Source: Methanothrix sp. (GTDB lineage Archaea; Halobacteriota; Methanosarcinia; Methanotrichales; Methanotrichaceae). Taken from it: a stretch of DNA of 43,921 nt. The notes under the pieces are model-generated. The model saw only the letters and a list, made by a program, of their open reading frames with translations. It was not told the DNA's origin and made no database searches. Made by a program: the position numbers and the translations under genes. Positions within the stretch are counted from its first letter, which is position 1, and each line of letters opens with the position of its first letter. The stretch is from positions 1-43,921 of the forward strand of contig NZ_JAOAKP010000009.1 of NCBI RefSeq assembly GCF_026419855.1, read 5' to 3'. Positions 15 to 15,426 of this stretch are shown here, one piece after another.

Positions 15-2627
15 GCCCTGATATATGCGCTCAGTCGGATATCCCATCCTGATGGGGCCACACTCGAGGCGCGCAACCGCTCATTTCACAGAATGCTAGT
101 CGATGGCGTGACGGTGGAATACCGAAGACCAGATGGCACCATCGCAGGGGCACAGGCCCGCGTCATCGACTTCGAGAATCCTGATAGCAATGACTTCTTG
201 GCCGTGAACCAGATCACCTTCCAGGAGGGAAGGAGCACACGCCGCCCTGACATCGTGCTCTTCATAAATGGACTTCCGATCGCGATCATCGAGCTCAAGA
301 ACCCGACAGACGAGAGTGCGACCATCTGGGATGCCTACCAGCAGCTCCAGACGTACATGAAGGAGCTGCCGGGCCTATTCTCCATGAACGAATTCCTCGT
401 TATATCAGATGGTCTTGAGGCGCGCATCGGAACGCTGACATCCGGAAGAGAATGGTTCAAGCCCTGGAGGACCATAAAGGGGGAAGGGGTCGATGACTTC
501 GGCGCCCTGCAGCTCGATGTACTGCTCAGAGGAGTCTTCGAGAGGAAGAACCTACTGGAGCTCATTCGCGATTTCGTGGTCTTTGAGGACGACGGCTCCG
601 GGAAGATAAGAAAGAATATGGCCGGTTACCATCAGTTCCACGCTGTGAGGGTGGCGGTTGCGGAGACCCTGCGGGCAGCTGGAATAAAATCATCAGGAAG
701 AGGCCATCCAGGAGATCACCGCATCGGCGTTGTCTGGCACACCCAGGGCTCTGGCAAGAGCCTGACGATGGTATTCTATACAGGCCGCATAATCAGGGAG
801 CCTGCGATGCAGAATCCGACGGTGGTGGTGCTCACAGACCGCAACGATCTTGACGATCAGCTCTTCGGCACGTTCTCCCTCTGCCAAGACCTCCTCCGCC
901 AGCCGCCTGTACAGGCGGAGAGCCGCGAGGATCTCAGAGAGAGGCTGCAGATCGAGGCAGGGGGCATCATCTTCACAACAATCCAGAAGTTTCTGTCAGA
1001 GGACAGGCGCGCTCTATCCCGCAGGAGAAACATAGTTGTGATCGCAGATGAGGCACACCGGAGCCAGTATGACTTCATAGATGGTTTCGCGAGGCACATG
1101 AGGGACGCGCTTCCTAACGCATCATTCATAGCCTTCACAGGCACACCTCTGGAGCTGGATGACCGGAACACCCGCGCAGTCTTCGGCGATTACATCTCCA
1201 TCTACGATATACAGAACGCAGTAGAGGACGGTGCCACGGTCCCAATCTACTACGAGAGCCGGCTCGCAAAGCTCAACCTGCCGGAGCACCTCAAGCCAAA
1301 GATCGATGAGGGGTTCGAAGAGGTCACAGAAGGAGATGAGATCGAGCACAAGGAGATGCTCAAGAGGAAGTGGGCACAGTTTGAGGCCATCGTGGGGACA
1401 AGGAAGAGGCTTCAGATGATCGCAGAGGATATCGTGAAGCACTTCGAGCAGCGGCTTGAGACACTCGATGGAAAGGCGATGATAGTATGCATGAGCAGGC
1501 GCATATGCGTCGACATGTACAACGAGATAATTCGCCTCAGACCGGAGTGGCATGATGATGACGATACGAAGGGGAGAATAAAGGTCGTCATGACCGGATC
1601 TGCATCTGATCCGGATGAATGGCAGCCGCACATCCGCAACAAGCCACGCAGAAGGGCGCTGGCAGAGAGGTTCAGAGATCCAGATGATCCTCTTAAGATC
1701 GTCATAGTCAGGGACATGTGGCTGACCGGCTTCGACTGCCCGAGCCTGCACACAATGTACATCGACAAGCCTATGCGCGCCCATGGTCTGATGCAGGCGA
1801 TCGCCAGGGTTAACCGCGTTTTCAGGGACAAGCCCGGAGGGCTCGTCGTGGACTACATAGGCCTGGGATACGACCTCAAAGAGGCGCTTGCAACCTACAC
1901 TGCCAGCGGTGGAAACGGGAGAACCGCGATAGATATCGATGAGGCAGTCGCTGTGATGCTGGAGAAGTACGAGATCTGCCGGGATCTCTTCCACGGCTTT
2001 GATATCTCCTCCTGGGTGAAGGGCTCTCCCGAAGACCGGCTCAGAATTTTGCCCGCGGCTCAGGAGCACATATTGGCCCAGATCGACGGAAGGGAGCGGT
2101 TTATCAGGGCATCCTCTGATCTCACAAAGTCCTTCGCACTGGCTGTGCCACATGAGAGAGCGCTGAGCATAAGGGACGAGGTCGCGTTCTTCCAGGCTGT
2201 TCGGTCTGCTCTGCTCAAGAGAGCACCATCAGATCGTGTTCGAGATCAGGATACAGACCGGGCCATACAGGACCTCATCTCGAGGTTCATAGCGCCAGAG
2301 GGGATCGTCGACATATTCACAGTTGCTGGCCTGAAGAGGCCGGATATCTCCATACTCTCCGAGGAGTTCCTGGCAGAGGTCCGCAACATCCCCCACAAGA
2401 ATCTCGCGGTCGAGCTCCTCCGGAAGCTGATATCAGGGGAGATAAAGGAGCGCCGGAGAAGGAACGTCGTCAGGGCGCGATCGTTTGCCGAGATGCTCGA
2501 TCAGTCTCTGAAAAGGTACCACAACCGTGCCATAGATGCTGTGCAGATTATAGAGGAGCTGATCGATATCGCCCGTAGGATGCGTGAGGACGAGATGCGC
2601 GGCAAGGCGCTCGGCCTTCACAGATGA
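15..2627 (+). CDS. Type I restriction enzyme R subunit, 5'-truncated and frameshifted
   Basis: HsdR is the motor and nuclease subunit of a type I restriction-modification complex. It translocates DNA with ATP and cuts unmodified DNA. The frame is open to the left edge, so perhaps 80-100 N-terminal residues are missing; the first ATG at 93 is internal. Counting from that Met, a PD-(D/E)xK nuclease core is visible (D53, then E67-L-K69). It is followed by Walker A HTQGSGKS (about 738-765), DEAH (about 1046) and the helicase motif FTGTPLE (about 1135). The frame ends in GKALGLHR-stop at 2627, whereas the family continues with a C-terminal domain found in another frame just downstream. hsdM and hsdS are not in the window and may lie to the left. 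The family call is very secure; activity is doubtful because of the frameshift. Confidence 0.93.
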
Positions 2628-2981: not shown

Positions 2982-3040
2982 TCTCGCTCTTATCCATATG
3001 ATAACTTGCCCACCGATACATTGGTTCCAATATGCACTCA
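2982..3040 (-). repeat. Dispersed ~55-bp repeat, copy A
   Basis: Read on the minus strand, it runs from AGTGCATA through CAAGTTATCATATGGATAAG to GAGCGAGATTATAAG. The core word GGATAAGAGCG is shared with copies near 3.1, 43.1 and (with one change) 39.4 and 5.3 kb. A TATA-like ATTATAAG follows at once. TTATC and GATAA can pair across ATATG. The function is unknown. Confidence 0.7.
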
Positions 3041-3100
3041 TGGCGAATAAATGAGGGCTTTTTGTAGCCAGCATGCTTTGCACGCAAGTTGTCAACCACA

Positions 3101-3156
3101 TAAATGCATAGCAGGACCAGTGCATCTTCTGTGGGTCATCGTATGGATAAGAGCGC
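3101..3156 (+). repeat. Dispersed ~55-bp repeat, copy B
   Basis: The copy contains ATGCATAGCAGGACCAGTGC, a short TC-rich spacer, and then CATCGTATGGATAAGAGCG. The match to copy E near the right end of the window covers both the GCATAGCAG-ACCA half and the GGATAAGAGCG half. A TATA-like ATTTATAG lies about 20 bases further on. No gene follows directly. Confidence 0.75.
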
Positions 3157-4719: not shown

Positions 4720-5316
4720 AACATCGACTCCATATTCGAATTTGTATTACCAGACGTCACAGGGATCTTTAAAGAACCAGATCTCCAAAGCGGATTTACT
4801 GCAGGCGTGCCGACGCAGGCGAAATCCTTGAAGTTCTCGCTCAGAAAGAAGGCTCCAGAGAGGCAGGAATCTGCATCATTCTCTACTTTAATGAATGATC
4901 CAGTAGAGTTCCCGGACAGCCCGGCTTATAGAGTGAGTCTGGCTGTCTAGTTCATGGCCACGGCATCTCAATCCGCATGCATATACCCAGCGCTATGTAG
5001 CGCCCGCACCGATTCTGGATGATCTGAGCTTGAGACTGTTCCGTCCTGAGATCCTGTAAAAGCAGCCCTAAATAAATAGTTACGCATTCGAATACTTAAG
5101 CAGATTATAGAAGATTCCTATTAAACTCCTCTTCAACAATCTGCACATCTCGCTGCCTGCTTCTATTAAAGTAGTTTTATAGTATTCCGTATAAGTTTAT
5201 ATAATATTGCATATTACATAAAATCATGTATAAAGTGGGACATATCATGCAGATTTTAAATTGATTTATATGAAGCGACGCAAAGAGCTATAATTTATGG
5301 GGAGCTTAAGCTCCAA

Positions 5317-5372: not shown

Positions 5373-5412
5373 TTCAATATCATAATGTATCTACGCTGTA
5401 GAATATAATATC

Positions 5413-5606
5413 ACTAATTTCAGAATTGGGCACTAATTTTAAAAACAATAATAGTAAGCCCGAAATTAGTAAATTAATAAAATTAGTTCGTTTGAATGCT
5501 CTTCATAGAGGTGTGCGTGCGTGTCCGCATGGAGACCTGCCATGACGCACAGAATCACCTCCTGCAGGCCTCTGCACTGCTACTAATTTTACAAATTTAC
5601 TAATTT
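5413..5606. repeat. Iteron-like ACTAATTT octamers
   Basis: Exact copies of ACTAATTT lie at 5413, 5432, 5582 and 5599, and of its complement AAATTAGT at 5463 and 5480. They fall into three pairs with start-to-start spacings of 19, 17 and 17 bases. The middle pair is inverted relative to the other two. Near-matches (GAATTAGC) continue into 5630-5665. This arrangement resembles initiator or regulator binding sites. Confidence 0.6.
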
Positions 5607-5661
5607 AGTGCCTTTAGATATCGATTTTCGAATTAGCTATTGTTATATAAAATTGGTTGAA

Positions 5662-7845
5662 TTAGCCCTCGCCTGTCCCCTCCTCCATATCGAATGCCTG
5701 TTTCTTTATCGGGGTTACCCACCTCGTCCGCTTATTTATGGTCTTGCTGTAGGATCGGGATTTCCCTGGCGGTGTGGCCAGCAAACCCTTCTGCTCGATC
5801 GCATCCAGCAGGATGTCTTTTCTCAGGATCCTGTTTTCACCCTGGCCGCGCAGGAGTTCATTGACTGCTTTTATCGCTGGATCCATCAATACATAGTATA
5901 CATCATCATCTGGACCCCAGCCGATCAGCTCCCTGCGTCCTGGCATGATCTCCCTGTCCCAGATGGGTACAGATCCATCCATCGATGCGAAATACACCTT
6001 ATTCTGAGCCAGGAGATCTGATATGGCCTGGAAGAAGATCTGCGATGCATCGCCTTTCTGAGCCATCTCCGTCTGCTCATCAGCACCCATGTTCAGAGCG
6101 TCCCAGCCTCTTTTGAGATGATTCCCGGCTTCTTCCTCGGTTAAGGCACCAGATTCAACCGCATACCTGAAGAACGTCTCAAGACCGATGTACATGTCCG
6201 CTACGGCCTCGTTCAGCCTGCCGTGACGACCCTGGATCTCTGCCTCAGCGATTGCCCTTTCACGAAGCTCTCCGAACCTGGCTGGCAGACGTTTAGATAG
6301 ATCGTCGAGCTGCGGTGCCAGCCAAGTCAGGTACCCGACCATGGCCTGGGACAGAAGCTCTCTGCGATCCTGAGCCGTCCTAATTCGATCGTTGTCCAGG
6401 TCGTCAGGGGATATGTGCAGTGTGTATGCGCGAGCCAGTGACGACCCGGAGAGGGGCTGGAGCTCGCCAGATGCGACTATGAGACCACGAGGTGGATGGC
6501 CGCTGTTCAGCGTGTAGTCATGTTTGCCCGGAACCAGCCTGGATCTCCCCTGCCGGTCACCCTGGTTCCTCATGAGGTACTCCAGGACACCAACCAGCTT
6601 CTGCTGCTCTTTTGGATCCTGCGCGGGATACAGATCGTCTACCGCCAGGAGGACATCCTTCGCGATAAAGGCCATAAGCTCGATGCTCATTGGCGTATCA
6701 CGGAACGATGCGGGTAGCGTCTTGTTATCGAACCTTCCGAACATGCACAGTACCAGGGCAATGATGGTCGACTTTCTCGAACCCGATGGCCCCCAGAGGT
6801 ACATCAAAACGCCAGGCTCGATTCCAGCCATCCTGAACGGTTCCATGAGTGGCGATAAGAACGCCATGGAGACCAGCGGGTACATTATCCTGGCAGGTCC
6901 CGCATCGAAGAGATCAATAACGGCCTTTATGGCCGCATTCAAATCGGGGACCGTCTCAGGCAGCCTGTAATTCTGGAGCTTTGCCGGAAGCTCGATCTCT
7001 ACGTTTTCAGCACCTATCGCACCGCCAGCGTGCAGGTAGATCCACTTTCCGTCAATATGCTTCCATCCCAGAAACGTATAGACCGAGCTTTCCGGGATGC
7101 CGTTCTGAGCCATCTTCTGGAGCAGGAACCTGAGCTCCGCCTCTTTGAACGGCCTGATTGCAGTCTTCATGCCCCATATACGGCCAGGCCATTTCATCTC
7201 GCTGAACTCCGACATCGATATGCAGATCTTTGGAAGGGGTGTTGAGTCTGGCAGAATGCCCTCAAGCTCGATAGACCTCTCCCTCGACTCGCCATTGTCT
7301 TTGAGAATCTCACGAACCGGCCAGGCCACGAAATCGCATATCGGTGTATCGACTGTTTCATAGGCCGAATCACCTGTGGCCGGGTCGAAGATTTTTTCTA
7401 TAGTGACCCTGGATAAACCTCCCTTCTCGTTTATGCGGTAGTCTGCAATCCCATTCATGAGGCGTAATGCAGCATCATATCTGGCATCGAGACCGGAACC
7501 GGCACTGTTCTCTGCTGAGGTCTTCTCGTTTGCGCTCTGCACCTCTGCCTGTGCTTTGATCTTAGACTTCAGGAGGGTAAAGTCAGGCGCAGGTTTTGCT
7601 CTCTTCAATCTCGACCAGGCACGATTGTATTCTGCTGGATTGTTGCGCCACAGATAAGCCAGTGCCCTGATATTTCGAGGTTCGAGTGGCAGGCCCGGAT
7701 CGAAGTTGTTGTCCTGAACCGACCTCTCGGCCCGCTCGCATATCTCGTTAACAATCCTCAACGCCTCCTCAAGGAGTCCCTCACGTGTCGGTGAAACTGT
7801 GGGACTGCCCTCTGACGACATGCCACTCTCATATTCATCAATCAT
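5662..7845 (-). CDS. Mobile-element P-loop ATPase (DUF927-like replication protein)
   Basis: This large protein of about 727 residues has Walker A GPSGSRKST near residue 365 and a Walker B-like strand LLAVDDLYP about 50 residues later. The block order resembles DUF927 and related helicase/primase C-terminal ATPases of integrated plasmids and viruses. The N-terminal third has no recognised motif. An open frame exists upstream to 7893, but ATG at 7845 has a good AAAGGTG site 5-6 bases before it, so I prefer it. A GCCAGC/GCTGGC hairpin lies just upstream of that site (about 7868-7893). The gene follows two small genes in the same direction and ends in the octamer-rich AT stretch. A role in element replication is inference from fold class and context; a specialised regulatory ATPase is possible. 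Confidence 0.75.
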   Translation of the reverse strand: MIDEYESGMSSEGSPTVSPTREGLLEEALRIVNEICERAERSVQDNNFDPGLPLEPRNIRALAYLWRNNPAEYNRAWSRLKRAKPAPDFTLLKSKIKAQAEVQSANEKTSAENSAGSGLDARYDAALRLMNGIADYRINEKGGLSRVTIEKIFDPATGDSAYETVDTPICDFVAWPVREILKDNGESRERSIELEGILPDSTPLPKICISMSEFSEMKWPGRIWGMKTAIRPFKEAELRFLLQKMAQNGIPESSVYTFLGWKHIDGKWIYLHAGGAIGAENVEIELPAKLQNYRLPETVPDLNAAIKAVIDLFDAGPARIMYPLVSMAFLSPLMEPFRMAGIEPGVLMYLWGPSGSRKSTIIALVLCMFGRFDNKTLPASFRDTPMSIELMAFIAKDVLLAVDDLYPAQDPKEQQKLVGVLEYLMRNQGDRQGRSRLVPGKHDYTLNSGHPPRGLIVASGELQPLSGSSLARAYTLHISPDDLDNDRIRTAQDRRELLSQAMVGYLTWLAPQLDDLSKRLPARFGELRERAIAEAEIQGRHGRLNEAVADMYIGLETFFRYAVESGALTEEEAGNHLKRGWDALNMGADEQTEMAQKGDASQIFFQAISDLLAQNKVYFASMDGSVPIWDREIMPGRRELIGWGPDDDVYYVLMDPAIKAVNELLRGQGENRILRKDILLDAIEQKGLLATPPGKSRSYSKTINKRTRWVTPIKKQAFDMEEGTGEG

Positions 7846-7986
7846 ATCAACACCTTTAATACACAAGCCAGCCCGCTTCGCACGAGCTGGCATCCCCCAT
7901 ATCAGAACCGTTCAACATCCACGCCTGTTCCAACAACAGTTCTCTTTCCTGAGACCCAGTGTCCACTACCTCTGTTGTACCTGACA

Positions 7987-8184
7987 CTACCAGTCGAGAA
8001 CCCTCAGTTCCTGGACACAGGCTGATATTCCGCTTCTGTATCGGGAAGTAGTGTTTTTCCTGTCCCTCCTCCTCAAGTCGGCATCTTCTGTAGCGTCCGC
8101 TGTGATCTGACCGGCAATATCTCTATCCGAATGTTCATCCTCAGGGCGCTCAGCATATCGATCCCCCCTCAGACTTTGCTGCAT
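7987..8184 (-). CDS. Small charged protein of unknown function
   Basis: The 65-codon frame starts at ATG 8184 inside the 3' end of the preceding gene (35-base overlap) and ends 140 bases before the ATPase. Composition is strongly charged (many Arg, Asp, Glu), with no signal peptide or membrane span and a single Cys. No family is recognised. The position between two same-strand genes supports it as part of the operon, but length and overlap leave real doubt. Confidence 0.4.
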   Translation of the reverse strand: MQQSLRGDRYAERPEDEHSDRDIAGQITADATEDADLRRRDRKNTTSRYRSGISACVQELRVLDW

Positions 8185-8554
8185 GCGGTATTACAATCGT
8201 GGTGCAGCACATCCCTCTGGAATCATCAACCCGTTCATCCCTCCCGGTAAGCACTCTGATCATGTACTCTTTGCCCGGGATATCGGTTCGGAGTATCGCG
8301 ATCCTGCTCCCCACATTAGGGGCCAGCTTATCCTTAAGCCCGATTGGCAAGACAACAACATGTCCTGCGATCTCTGCCAGCAGCATACCATCTTCCTCCA
8401 CAAGCTCTGCGAAGGTACCGACTACCTCCATGTACGGAGAGAGCACGGTCATCTTCCGGCTGTCCGTTACCATTCCTCCGCTGGACTGGAGCACGGGATT
8501 CCAGAGCAGTTCCACTCTTCCACCCATACCAGACCTCACATCAACGCTCATCAT
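8150..8554 (-). CDS. Small hypothetical protein, first gene of the ATPase operon
   Basis: This protein of about 134 residues is rich in alternating hydrophobic strands (EVVGTFAELVEEDG, LLAEIAGHVVVLPIG, SRIAILRTD), compatible with a small beta-barrel such as an OB-like fold. That is an impression only. The frame can open at GTG 8560, but ATG 8554 has GGAAG at a usable distance and is preferred. A minus-strand TATA-like TTAATATAAG lies at about 8623-8632. The gene faces the winged-helix regulator across a 200-base region full of operator palindromes, so it is probably controlled by that regulator. Confidence 0.65.
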   Translation of the reverse strand: MMSVDVRSGMGGRVELLWNPVLQSSGGMVTDSRKMTVLSPYMEVVGTFAELVEEDGMLLAEIAGHVVVLPIGLKDKLAPNVGSRIAILRTDIPGKEYMIRVLTGRDERVDDSRGMCCTTIVIPHAAKSEGGSIC

Positions 8555-8606
8555 CCACACACTTCCTGTGGCGTTTCACTGCCACAGCACACTGTTGCAC
8601 CCCGGC

Positions 8607-8635
8607 ACTATTTATTATTTTTCTTATATTAATTG
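8607..8635 (-). promoter_or_regulatory. TATA-like promoter for the minus-strand operon
   Basis: Read on the minus strand, TTAATATAAG followed by an A/T-rich run lies about 70 bases before the ATG at 8554. The spacing suits an archaeal TATA box with a leader of about 40-50 bases. Confidence 0.45.
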
Positions 8636-8644
8636 ATGTGCATT

Positions 8645-8717
8645 ATAACCGATTATATCCTGAAATGGGCTCCAAATAACCGGTTATATGCGGGCTTTGT
8701 GCTGTATAACCGGATCC
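8645..8717. promoter_or_regulatory. Three phased operator palindromes
   Basis: Three related 12-bp sites occur: ATAACCGATTAT (8645-8656), the perfect palindrome ATAACCGGTTAT (8676-8687) and the half-conserved ATAACCGGATCC (8706-8717). Start-to-start distances are 31 and 30 bp, close to three helical turns, so dimers could bind on one face. They lie between the divergent regulator and the small-protein/ATPase operon, directly upstream of the regulator's TATA-like CGATAAATATC (about 8721-8731). Confidence 0.75.
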
Positions 8718-8758
8718 CGATATCGATAAATATCTGCAAGGTTTTTGAAGGTGACATC

Positions 8759-9535
8759 ATGTCCGGAGCTGGAGTTAACAGGCACAGGGAAAAGGAGGAC
8801 AAGAAGATCAGCATCCTGCTGCTTCTGGCAGACGAAAAGGGCCACCCACAACGTGAAATCTCAAAGCACATTGAAACAGCCTTCAGTAATACTAACAGTA
8901 TTATAAGAGAGCTGATGGAGGATCATCTGATTTACGAAGGTGCGCCTCGAAGAACCACAAACCCGATGTCAAAGCGGCCGAGGGCAAAAGAGATTCCCTT
9001 GTATATAATCAGAGATCTGAAAGTGTACCGAACGATTTTAATGAATATCAATGATGAAATAGAGGAGAATATATTAAATATCCACATGGCATCAAGAAAC
9101 AGGGAGCTGGCACGTCAGCACATCATACTGGAGAGGAACGGGCTGCGTTTGAAAAAGGGTTCGATAACACAGGAAGATTATGAAAACCTGTATAAAAAAT
9201 TTGACGAGATGGCGAAGTACAGAGGGCATGAGGAGTCGTTTTATGAGAAAAAGCGTGATAAATACATGGCTTACCTTGAAAAGTTTTTATTATCAAAATA
9301 TACTGAAGAAGTCATCAGAGAATTCGGGCTCGATGCCGTACTGAGGATCGGCCTTACCGGAACGCTGGACATCTGGTATATGGAGAAAATTATTCAAATA
9401 GCATTGAATAAAAAGCTGGCGGATGAACTGCGAATCAAAGAGATTCTCGATGCCATGCAGGAGAACGGCCATTACGAGCTCCCATGCATCTTCAGCAGGA
9501 GAATCCCATCCAGGTTCGAGAACGGCACGATCTGA
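8759..9535 (+). CDS. Winged-helix transcriptional regulator of the element
   Basis: This 258-residue protein starts at ATG 8759, with GGTGA a few bases upstream (AAGGTGACATCATG). The frame continues upstream to 8633, but that part covers the operators and is not protein-like. Residues about 10-65 form a winged-helix DNA-binding domain (KISILLLLADEKGHPQREIS, then SNTNSIIRELMEDHLIYEG). The remainder is helical and charged, compatible with a dimerisation or coiled-coil region. The gene is more AT-rich than the core genes. It is divergent from the ATPase operon and preceded by three phased palindromes, so autoregulation and control of the operon are likely. It may act as the element's repressor or copy-number regulator; that role is inferred. 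Confidence 0.75.
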   Translation: MSGAGVNRHREKEDKKISILLLLADEKGHPQREISKHIETAFSNTNSIIRELMEDHLIYEGAPRRTTNPMSKRPRAKEIPLYIIRDLKVYRTILMNINDEIEENILNIHMASRNRELARQHIILERNGLRLKKGSITQEDYENLYKKFDEMAKYRGHEESFYEKKRDKYMAYLEKFLLSKYTEEVIREFGLDAVLRIGLTGTLDIWYMEKIIQIALNKKLADELRIKEILDAMQENGHYELPCIFSRRIPSRFENGTI

Positions 9536-9558
9536 ACTCCCACGAATGATATGCACAT

Positions 9559-9577
9559 CAACCTCTCCAGGAGGTTG
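9559..9577. terminator. Hairpin between convergent genes
   Basis: CAACCTC and GAGGTTG form a 7-bp stem around TCCAG, in the 66-base gap between the convergent regulator and recombinase genes. There is no strong T-run, so the terminator assignment rests mainly on position. Confidence 0.4.
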
Positions 9578-9601
9578 GGGGTACCTCTGAGCCGCGCCCT
9601 C

Positions 9602-10543
9602 CTATATCCCGAGCTGAGGTATGTGCGCGAGGTAGCTCTCCCTGAGCTCCTCTCTGTCTATGTGGTCGTAGATGTCTATGGCGCTCCTCCTCACGTCTCC
9701 CCTGAGCTCCTGGATGAACTCGCGCGGCATGCCAGCCCTCCTGAGATGCGTCGTGAACCAGTGGCGGCAGCAGTGGGGTGTGAAGTGGTCCTCTGGGCGA
9801 TCTGAGCCGGGGTCGTGCAGGCCGACGCGTTCCGCAGCTTTCGTCACCACCATGTAAACCCCGTTCCGATCCAGCCTCTCCCCCATGCTGTTGATGAAAA
9901 GAGCCCTGATGTTCCTGCTGTTCCTCGACTCTCTGGCCCTGAGCCACCTGTGAAGTATGAACGCGGTCTCCTCATCGAAGAACACGGTCCTGTTCGTCCT
10001 CTTCGCGGTCGGCTTGAGCCTTATGCTCTGATCCACCATGTCGACGTCGTCCACATCCAGGCTTATGAGCTCGTTCCGGCGTATGCCGGTCTTCGCCAGC
10101 AGTGTGATTATGGCCTTGTCTCTTATGTCCACGACCGAGTTTATGAGCCGGGCCATCTCCTCCACGGATATGAGCTTTCTCGAACCCCCATCGTCGTTGT
10201 CCTTGTACCTCCGCAGGTACCTCTTCCTCACAGAATGTATCGGGTTTCTGGGGATGTACTCCTCGTACTCCAGAAACTCGTAGAATGCCGAGAGCGCGGA
10301 AAAGTAGTTCTCAACAGTCTTATGGCTCACACCCCTCTCCTGCCTGAGGTACTCCAGAAAGCTCCTCAGAACGTTCTTGTCAACACCGAGCAGGTCGATA
10401 CCCCTGCTCGCGAGGAACTGGGTGTAAATCCTGAGCGACGATATGTATCGTCGTGTGGACTCTCCAGACATCCCACGGATCTCGCAGTCATGCTCGAACT
10501 GGCGTATGAGGTCTGAGGCGAGATCGTTCTTTTTTACATCCAT
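9602..10543 (-). CDS. Tyrosine recombinase/integrase (XerA-like)
   Basis: This 313-residue site-specific recombinase has an N-terminal SAM-like core-binding domain (about residues 8-95) and a catalytic domain (about 115-310). Visible catalytic residues are Arg in TGIRRNELISL, the HxxR box in HCCRHWF and the nucleophile Tyr in AIDIYDHID. The LLAKTG block before the first Arg is typical. The frame opens at 10555, but the ATG at 10543 forms TGATG with the stop of the preceding RHH gene, which points to translational coupling. The pair lies next to tRNA-Leu, a common attachment target. I found no second copy of the tRNA 3' end, so an active integrase versus a resident chromosomal recombinase remains open. 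Confidence 0.9.
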   Translation of the reverse strand: MDVKKNDLASDLIRQFEHDCEIRGMSGESTRRYISSLRIYTQFLASRGIDLLGVDKNVLRSFLEYLRQERGVSHKTVENYFSALSAFYEFLEYEEYIPRNPIHSVRKRYLRRYKDNDDGGSRKLISVEEMARLINSVVDIRDKAIITLLAKTGIRRNELISLDVDDVDMVDQSIRLKPTAKRTNRTVFFDEETAFILHRWLRARESRNSRNIRALFINSMGERLDRNGVYMVVTKAAERVGLHDPGSDRPEDHFTPHCCRHWFTTHLRRAGMPREFIQELRGDVRRSAIDIYDHIDREELRESYLAHIPQLGI

Positions 10544-11052
10544 CACCCAATCCACCTCCAGCCGTGGGCCGTTCTCGCCACAAGACCGTACGCCTCAAGA
10601 TCCTCCAGCTGGCTCGATACCGCCTTAACAAGATCAGAATCGCCCGGGTCTATGTTCAGCTCCTCAAGAAGCCTGTAGCTCTCCACAGTGCCACCACGCC
10701 TCAGTATCCGTATGATCTCCCTGTTGTATCTCCTGACACCCTCAAAACCTGTATCGAGAAACGCCTCGCTCCTGTAACGTCTGAGCTCCTTCTCGTACCT
10801 CTCTATGACTATCTTCTTCTGCCTGAGGTCGTCCCTCAGCTCCCTGTTCTCAGCGCGCAACCTGCCGAGCTCCAGCATCAGCTCCTTACGCGGCTTGTAT
10901 TCCGATCCCTCGGCGATCGCACTCTCAAACACCTCTATCACAAACCTGGACAGCGGCACTCCTGCCTTCCTGGCAAGACTCTCCCACCGGGCTTTGTCCT
11001 CTGAGGAAGGAAGATAGAGGTAAACATATCTGGACCTGTCAGGCTTGACCAT
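10543..11052 (-). CDS. Ribbon-helix-helix/coiled-coil DNA-binding protein
   Basis: This 169-residue protein has an RHH-like N-terminus (RYVYLYLPSSEDKARWESLA, then GVPLSRFVIEVFESAI). It continues with a long charged coiled coil (about residues 55-95, ELGRLRAENRELRDDLRQKK). The C-terminal part resembles a winged helix (NREIIRILRRGGTVESYRLL, ending with GLVARTAHGWRWIG). It overlaps the recombinase start by one base, so the two are made together. A partner or accessory role for the recombinase, or autoregulation, is likely. A 10-bp inverted repeat immediately upstream would suit RHH binding. I know of no characterised homologue. Confidence 0.8.
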   Translation of the reverse strand: MVKPDRSRYVYLYLPSSEDKARWESLARKAGVPLSRFVIEVFESAIAEGSEYKPRKELMLELGRLRAENRELRDDLRQKKIVIERYEKELRRYRSEAFLDTGFEGVRRYNREIIRILRRGGTVESYRLLEELNIDPGDSDLVKAVSSQLEDLEAYGLVARTAHGWRWIG

Positions 11053-11062
11053 GAACTACCAC

Positions 11063-11097
11063 AAGAAATAAAGTAAACATCATTGTATTTATTTCTT
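11063..11097. promoter_or_regulatory. Inverted repeat upstream of the RHH-recombinase operon
   Basis: AAGAAATAAA (11063-11072) and TTTATTTCTT (11088-11097) are perfect 10-bp inverted arms separated by 15 bases. They lie between the 3' end of tRNA-Leu and the start of the RHH gene (11052). They could be an autoregulatory operator, a recombination site arm or a tRNA 3' processing/termination signal. Confidence 0.5.
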
Positions 11098-11110
11098 ACC
11101 AGTAAAAGAG

Positions 11111-11195
11111 TGCGGGGGAAGGGATTTGAACCCTTGAACTCCTGCGAGAATAGATCTTGAGTCTATCACCGTTGGCCTGGCTTGGTTACCCCCGC
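11111..11195 (-). tRNA. tRNA-Leu(CAA)
   Basis: The minus strand folds as an 85-nt class II tRNA. The acceptor is GCGGGGG/CCCCCGC with A as discriminator, and the anticodon stem is ATAGA/TCTAT around CTCAAGA, giving anticodon CAA (Leu UUG). The variable arm is long, and the T-arm is GGG-TTCAAAT-CCC. No intron and no encoded CCA. A TATA-like CCTTATATCG lies upstream at about 11226-11236. It sits next to the recombinase operon, with its 3' end toward it, the usual orientation of a tRNA attachment site. Confidence 0.95.
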
Positions 11196-15242: not shown

Positions 15243-15296
15243 ATCCGCTCTTCTTGCTTGGAGAGGCACTGTTTCCGCTATTGTGCTCCTGATGAA

Positions 15297-15357
15297 TGAA
15301 TGCGTGCCTCCAGCAACCGTTACGCTTGCTCTCTAAGTTGCTGAACAAACAAGAGCG
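15297..15357 (+). repeat. Possible degenerate copy of the dispersed repeat
   Basis: The segment has CCAGCAACCGTT, then CTAAGTTGCTG and ACAAGAGCG, followed by TATATT. The order of sub-words (AGCA-ACC, AAGTT, AAGAGCG, TATA) matches copy E, but the core GGATAAGAGCG is not intact. It is listed as a weak candidate only. Confidence 0.3.
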
Positions 15358-15426
15358 TTTGTATATTCATTCACTGTGCAGCTACGCCAGCTTTTCTGAA
15401 GGCCGTGGCTGCCGTTCTTCTCTCCC

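Follow-up and report, generated by a model that had tools for sequence, protein, structure and literature searches.

Does the ATPase gene with short repeats behind it in this archaeal contig form the replication module of an integrated element, and if so, of what kind? The host of the window (the whole stretch of 43,921 nucleotides analysed here) is archaeal, as judged from a geranylgeranylglyceryl phosphate synthase. The initial annotation of the window had proposed that six exact octamers, set in three pairs 17 to 19 bp apart in AT-rich DNA at the 3' end of a DUF927-like ATPase gene, belong to an integrated plasmid or virus-like element with its own origin. We consider it quite probable that the locus is an integrated replicon in which a SaPI/SCC-type Rep helicase is paired with its own origin and an Xer-type recombinase moves the unit at tRNA-Leu genes.

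The array is well beyond chance expectation. Counted on both strands, ACTAATTT occurs six times in the 43,921 bases, and all six copies (5413-5606) lie where they had been proposed, 56 to 249 bp beyond the ATPase stop codon. Shuffled versions of the window hold 0.36 copies on average and three at most, six being reached in 0 of 100, and likewise 0 of 300 dinucleotide shuffles of the 261-bp stretch 5401-5661 matched the six octamers. The spaced pair ACTAATTT-N{2,30}-ACTAATTT was found three times in the 1.9-Mb genome, each time within the window array, and its control read backwards was found nowhere in the same genome. The start-to-start distances of the paired octamers are 19, 17, and 17 bp, so number and spacing had been given exactly; however, the two 17-bp pairs are really triplets with a period of 8 to 9 bp, in which the middle copy carries one mismatch. 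These two triplets (5582-5606 and 5463-5487) are mutually inverted, with 94 bp between them. The AT-rich setting applies to the gap stretch behind the ATPase gene as a whole (34% GC) but not to the 94 bp between the triplets, which are 56% GC.

The array is part of a larger block with a defined anatomy that recurs and is patchily present. The helicase occurs in two of the six genomes of the genus, namely, that of the window (G000) and G002, whose contig is the public record JAKPCO010000042.1. DNA homology between them corresponds to window positions 5411-11195 (5.8 kb), with one short break at 8087-8137, and this shared block spans the first octamer to the end of a tRNA gene (Table 1). The arrangement of triplet B is identical in G002, and within the gap 62 of 64 repeat columns are identical between the two genomes, compared with 148 of 184 other columns (Fisher p 0.001). 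Absence of the octamers from homologous elements, which would count against the proposed module, is thus not seen in this closer homologue.

Table 1. Features of the shared block and its repeat array, in window positions
Feature	Position	Strand	Remarks
Left end of shared block and outlying repeat pair	5411..5439	.	Repeats 5413-5420, 5432-5439; G002 homology starts 5411
ACTAATTT copies	5413(+), 5432(+), 5463(-), 5480(-), 5582(+), 5599(+)		
Repeat triplet B	5463..5487	-	5463-5470, 5471-5478 (1 mismatch), 5480-5487
Spacer between inverted triplets	5488..5581	.	94 bp, 56% GC
Repeat triplet A	5582..5606	+	5582-5589, 5591-5598 (1 mismatch), 5599-5606
Putative Rep-type helicase (DUF927 ATPase, 727 aa)	5662..7845	-	Pfam DUF927; Walker A GPSGSRKST
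Small protein upstream of helicase	8150..8560	-	Start uncertain; kept in G002, G032, G024, G023
Winged-helix regulator	8633..9535	+	Start probably 8753; weak HTH_24/MarR matches
Xer-like tyrosine recombinase, 317 aa	9602..10555	-	Phage_integrase 1e-28
Putative DNA-binding regulator, 169 aa	10543..11052	-	Overlaps recombinase start; no useful family match
Palindrome-like motif TTACTGGTAAGAAATAAA, candidate recombination core	11088..11105	-	Directly 3' of tRNA
tRNA-Leu (CAA), integration-site side	11110..11195	-	G002 homology ends 11195

The profile search suggested in the initial annotation bears out the identity of the ATPase, which scores 31.8 bits against Pfam DUF927 (cut-off, 22.6), and the Walker A pattern G-x-x-G-S-x-K-S-T is kept in 5 of 5 aligned helicase homologues. 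DUF927 domains have been described as predicted helicases of mobile elements (PMC5862659), and Cch and the Rep of SaPIBov1 are reported as members of the DUF927 type (PMC10061031). By sequence, the helicase profile matched no Rep among PDB chains. The structure model, made from three sequences, has a mean pLDDT of 44 and is better only in the N-terminal helices and at residues about 600-720, its C-terminal part being moderately confident (blocks of pLDDT 51-81). A Foldseek search of 350,542 PDB chains placed the SaPIBov1 Rep first (8tch_B; E 0.02; Foldseek probability, 0.54) and an oriT-binding accessory protein of the pCW3 relaxosome second. With VIA-align, the C-terminal domain of the model (residues about 598-722) was laid on 8tch_A 452-557 (Z 9.2, rmsd 3.0, 103 residues, 11% identity); the Z score alone is no proof of a Rep fold, because in the next row an unrelated helical chain reached Z 8.9 on another part of the model. 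Since the match is located at the C-terminus and independent sequence evidence (see below) points to the same domain, we find the modeled similarity to a Rep-type C-terminal domain persuasive, if not beyond doubt.

At the opposite end of the block, the tyrosine recombinase gene adjoins the 3' end of the tRNA, as in integrative elements that target tRNA genes. It scores 182.9 bits, below the NCBIfam XerA equivalog cut-off of 220, and we rejected it as the chromosomal XerA. The winged-helix regulator is 55% identical in G002, and the structure model of the small protein (pLDDT 40) was too poor for use. The same block lies on the tRNA-Leu(CAA) side in G000 and on the tRNA-Leu(GAG) side in G002, where the neighboring genes presumably form a ribosomal-protein/RNA-polymerase operon. 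G032 belongs to the family but to another genus, and its recombinase-regulator end, with 70% DNA identity, again adjoins tRNA-Leu(GAG). Its presence in just two of the six genus genomes, at different tRNA-Leu genes, led us to reject a core gene block, and the proposal of a mobile unit withstands this comparison. We infer that a small mobile element, positions 5411-11195, is integrated at the 3' end of tRNA-Leu(CAA) and that it would be excised, exist in a circular form, and replicate autonomously. The DNA behind 15 tRNA-Leu genes of the six genus genomes holds the element in 2 cases, a remnant in 3, and, as judged by eye, neither in 10; these 15 do not include tRNA-Leu(GAG) of G001 or tRNA-Leu(CAG) of G000 and G003. 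The remnants (G001 CAA, G002 CAA, and G002 CAG) consist of the tRNA-side end with a TTACCGGTAAGAAATAAA-like motif.

Several observations concern the surroundings of this site. The DNA 3' of tRNA-Leu(CAA) differs in all six genus genomes whereas the other side is conserved, the pattern of a hotspot. To the left of the element, window positions 93-2627 hold a type I restriction enzyme gene (PADLOC REase_I); to the right of the tRNA, a gene at 11623-13428 matches models of the defence candidate HEC-05. For the element itself, PADLOC gave no match for the helicase, the small protein, the winged-helix protein, or the 169-aa regulator, and a defence system was rejected on the scan of these four proteins. 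The tRNA-Leu(GAG) of G032 is followed by ACTAATTT (L063:11182-11197), although the array of G032 uses another repeat.

Comparison with genomes lacking the block, from which its boundaries had been expected to emerge, was clear on the tRNA side and gave no clean empty site. The homology between G000 and G002 stops 2 bp short of the first octamer, the flanks beyond it being different, and because of this position 5411 is probably the true left end of the shared unit. In the window, G002, and G032, the left flank shows nothing above shuffles when compared with the tRNA 3' end, and a direct repeat of the attachment site was not found at the far end; the candidate core motif occurs once and was not found at the left end. 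An empty-site comparison at the CAA gene met sequences left of the tRNA that differ among all six genus genomes, and the G005 flank of tRNA-Leu(CAA) is located elsewhere in G000, G002, and G004. After tRNA-Leu(GAG), a common flank is shared by G003, G004, and G000, but not by G002 or G005. The comparison does not establish a simple insertion, because the G002 flank left of the element was unmatched after the empty tRNA-Leu(GAG) genes of G003, G004, and G005. From the proposed integrated element with its own origin, a replication module on a recurring, patchy, tRNA-adjoining block therefore stands, and the left attachment site is the part that was not found. Dispersed repeats of about 117, 72, 105, and 120 bp (window positions 5178-5294, 5110-5181, 15253-15358, and 2984-3103) have many copies across the genus, and the 117-bp repeat lies within about 300 bp left of the element in both G000 and G002, in opposite orientation. 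By eye, the right and left ends of the elements look like weak inverted repeats (CACTWATTT).

Beyond the genus, related helicases share the layout of the array but carry other repeats. Within the class, 8 of the 237 genomes matched the helicase profile, and every one of them belongs to the family of the window; a single helicase protein as query matched 8 of 50 genomes of that family, and a search of the phylum matched 5 of 392, four in the same family and one limited to a portion of the profile's N-terminal half. Three distant loci were readable behind the helicase gene (G032, G024, and G008); the helicase of G023 lies at a contig end and the matches in G047, G010, and G022 are partial, so the gaps of these four were not readable. 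In all three readable loci, a gap of about 310 to 320 bp follows the helicase gene and leads to a family-A DNA polymerase gene; the polymerases of G008 and G032 contain PF00476 and PF01612, the latter a 3'-5' exonuclease domain, and that of G024, which was aligned, is matched by PF00476, the scan for PF01612 having covered G008 and G032. The window octamer is replaced in these gaps by ACAGGACA in G032 (6 copies) and G024 (7 copies) and by AAGGGATA in G008 (9 copies). Thus, repeats stand behind the helicase gene in all five readable loci, with three unrelated repeat sequences, and no locus had its count equalled in any of 300 dinucleotide shuffles. The common layout consists of groups of 8- to 9-bp repeats, two of which are inverted and 81 to 94 bp apart. 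The centre between these groups is 56 to 59% GC in G000 and G002, where the AT-rich DNA lies outside the triplets, and 33 to 44% GC in G008, G024, and G032.

The relatives also differ in gene content. Their helicases are longer (919 to 931 aa) and have an additional DUF3854 domain (scanned in G008 and G032), which we take to be TOPRIM-like, whereas the window protein is without DUF3854. G008 further encodes a terminase large subunit (PF03237; phrog_7579), a second phage-family protein (phrog_27743), and a small open reading frame with no useful family match that we assume to be the terminase small subunit. A CRISPR-like regular repeat array, seen by eye at L061:984-5692, adjoins the G008 element.

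Because these relatives carry a polymerase, and one also a terminase, to the left of the array, the window block might be what is left of a provirus or plasmid after loss of its left half (polymerase, terminase, and left site), a decayed and now immobile relic whose genes are kept for host use. The left attachment site that was not found fits this account, as do the dispersed 117-bp repeats by the left end in both genomes, a possible cause of rearrangement. However, this block occurs at two different tRNA genes with its left end unchanged, which would require movement after the truncation, and the main genes of the block are all open, with dN/dS values of 0.14 to 0.19 (0.17 for the helicase, G000 versus G002). 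The genes of the element are under purifying selection, and we give the relic a modest chance of being correct, judging it unlikely overall.

The change of repeats among otherwise similar loci offers a way to ask which protein reads them. Helicase residues 601-730 are 85% identical between G000 and G002 and 95% identical between G024 and G032, pairs with the same repeats, but only 26, 26, and 20% identical where the repeats differ, with the ATPase core at 51 to 57%. The C-terminal domain is the part of the helicase that diverges most where the repeats differ. This is the domain that in SaPI Rep and SCC Cch2 is reported to bind repeats directly downstream of their own genes (PMC7581432). The 169-aa regulator is 88% identical to the window copy in G002; at loci with unrelated repeats it keeps 72% (G032) and 57% (G008) identity, and the recombinase 78% (G032) and 60% (G008); being well conserved across the repeat change, both are unlikely repeat readers. 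The winged-helix proteins of G000 and G032 are barely alignable (E 0.01), and as far as these sequences indicate this protein might read the repeats, as might the small protein, which is 37% identical between the same two genomes.

These comparisons bear on two other ways of explaining the array. The repeats could be operator or partition (centromere) sites for the small regulators of the element instead of an origin. The element does encode two putative regulators, the N-terminus of the 169-aa protein is presumably ribbon-helix-helix-like, and ribbon-helix-helix repressors and partition proteins often bind tandem sites with a period of 8 to 9 bp. On the other hand, the array lies behind the helicase gene and not at a regulator promoter, and it is the helicase C-terminus that changes with the repeats whereas the 169-aa regulator stays similar in G032 and G008; we regard operator or partition sites as quite improbable. 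Alternatively, the recombinase might use the array, at the left end of the element, as accessory arm sites, since the proximity of the first octamer to the end of homology places the array at the element end and the tRNA end of G032 leads into ACTAATTT. We hold such arm sites to be highly improbable, given that in G032, G024, and G008 the array lies inside the element, between the helicase and polymerase genes, that the recombinase is so similar between loci with unrelated repeats, and that a core site at the left end was not found.

Under the favored reading of an integrated replicon, the Xer-type recombinase would carry out integration of the element into tRNA-Leu genes and its excision from them, two steps that the 169-aa and winged-helix proteins may control. 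The DUF927 protein would act as a Rep-type initiator helicase whose C-terminal winged-helix domain binds the 8- to 9-bp repeats that directly follow its own gene, with probably two Rep rings, one set on each inverted triplet. Rep would then melt AT-rich DNA beside the repeats, allowing the excised circle to replicate. Since the spacer is 56 to 59% GC in G000 and G002, melting would start outside the triplets (5421-5462 or 5607-5661). The window copy, having neither the TOPRIM-like domain nor a polymerase, would borrow the primase and polymerase of the host.

A bolder proposal makes these elements the archaeal equivalent of phage-inducible chromosomal islands, namely, satellites in tRNA-Leu genes that would be copied by Rep and iterons while a tailed virus of their own host is active and would be carried in its capsids. 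The window block contains an integrase, a replication module, and regulator genes; structural or lytic genes were not found in it, nor were capsid, portal, terminase, or tail genes, and G008 has a terminase alone. A tailed provirus was rejected on these grounds, there being no virion gene in the window block. The terminase genes of G008 and a recombinase-regulator pair beside tail genes would be traces of a bond between satellite and virus. We see a small chance that this proposal is right; the block, at 5.8 kb, falls short of the PICI size of about 12 to 15 kb, and on account of this size we class the element with the Rep-iteron replicons, as a variant, rather than with the PICIs. The pair in question is a second, diverged regulator (36%) and recombinase (51%) in the window's genome (G000:C83, L121:7876-17753), followed directly by genes that we take to encode the baseplate, tail fibre, and tape-measure proteins of a tailed virus; pairs of this type are also present in G003 (L122) and G004 (L123).

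Wider searches returned few relatives. In the viral collection, neither the window helicase nor the full helicase profile matched any locus, the polymerase profile matched three distant loci, and the helicase core matched one (L091; 43% identical), with no repeat array visible by eye behind the gene and with neighboring genes that presumably mark a bacterial prophage. In the named genome collection, one match was the G002 contig itself (L018) and another a Ruminococcaceae record (L019) at 24%. Four phage records matched the G008 helicase in part, and 44 plasmid records, mostly actinobacterial, matched weakly (21 to 28% identity among the matches listed). The family-A DNA polymerase (PF00476) is present in 19 of 50 family genomes and in none of the six of the window's genus. 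It stands alone in L109 and L110, the genes near the latter being, we assume, type III CRISPR genes, and a tblastn search of the further polymerase loci (12 of 16) found this helicase or recombinase beside the polymerase in none.

In the open-licence literature, searched by title and abstract, no description was found of this element or, for this archaeal group, of a Rep gene followed by repeats. Within the literature searched, a Rep-iteron replicon is therefore new to this archaeal family, whereas Cch-like helicases on archaeal elements and DUF927 beside a proofreading family-A polymerase are already on record. One layout with three unrelated repeats and a diverging helicase C-terminus amounts to a natural experiment on the joint change of initiator and origin. 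Additionally, the small candidate origin could serve to build a shuttle vector for archaea in which genetic tools are few, and the polymerases of the relatives point to family-A polymerases moving on archaeal elements.

The nearest archaeal parallel is NitAR2-E2, a cryptic integrated element of Thaumarchaeota with a Cch-like helicase (PMC6563490), which shares with the window element its archaeal setting, integrated state, and helicase type; it belongs to another archaeal phylum, and the description of it in that source, where the word 'iteron' stands once, among the references, tells of no downstream repeats. Viruses of the TOSV group from Aquificae are reported to combine a proofreading family-A polymerase (PolA) with DUF927 (PMC7689252), much as a family-A polymerase with a proofreading domain adjoins the DUF927 helicase in our relatives. 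However, the TOSV genomes are described as about 37 to 41 kb with capsid genes, whereas here helicase and polymerase are separate genes with the repeats between them, and the window copy is without the polymerase.

Comparison with SaPIs and PICIs shows likenesses and differences. The window element is in an archaeal host, uses tRNA-Leu sites, and has no primase, and its block measures 5.8 kb against roughly 15 kb given for PICIs. Bacterial PICI origins are described as two repeat sets around an AT-rich region (PMC6092414), whereas the centre between the repeat sets is not AT-rich in G000 and G002, a point that we count against the origin reading. Shared with these islands, as reported, are short repeats directly 3' of the helicase gene, two repeat sets, and an integrase (PMC7581432, PMC6092414), and the modeled C-terminal fold of the window helicase resembles that of SaPIBov1 Rep. 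With regard to SCC, the recombinase here is a tyrosine recombinase and not a large serine recombinase, and the relatives have their polymerase, which carries a 3'-5' exonuclease domain, on the opposite side of the helicase, in contrast to CCPol-MP. Nevertheless, SCC as described has the same ingredients, namely, a DUF927-type helicase (Cch), a small protein before the helicase, a family-A polymerase (here in the relatives), and downstream repeats (PMC7581432, PMC10061031). The locus would thereby extend to archaea the replicon of staphylococcal islands, in which a Rep gene is followed by its own iterons.
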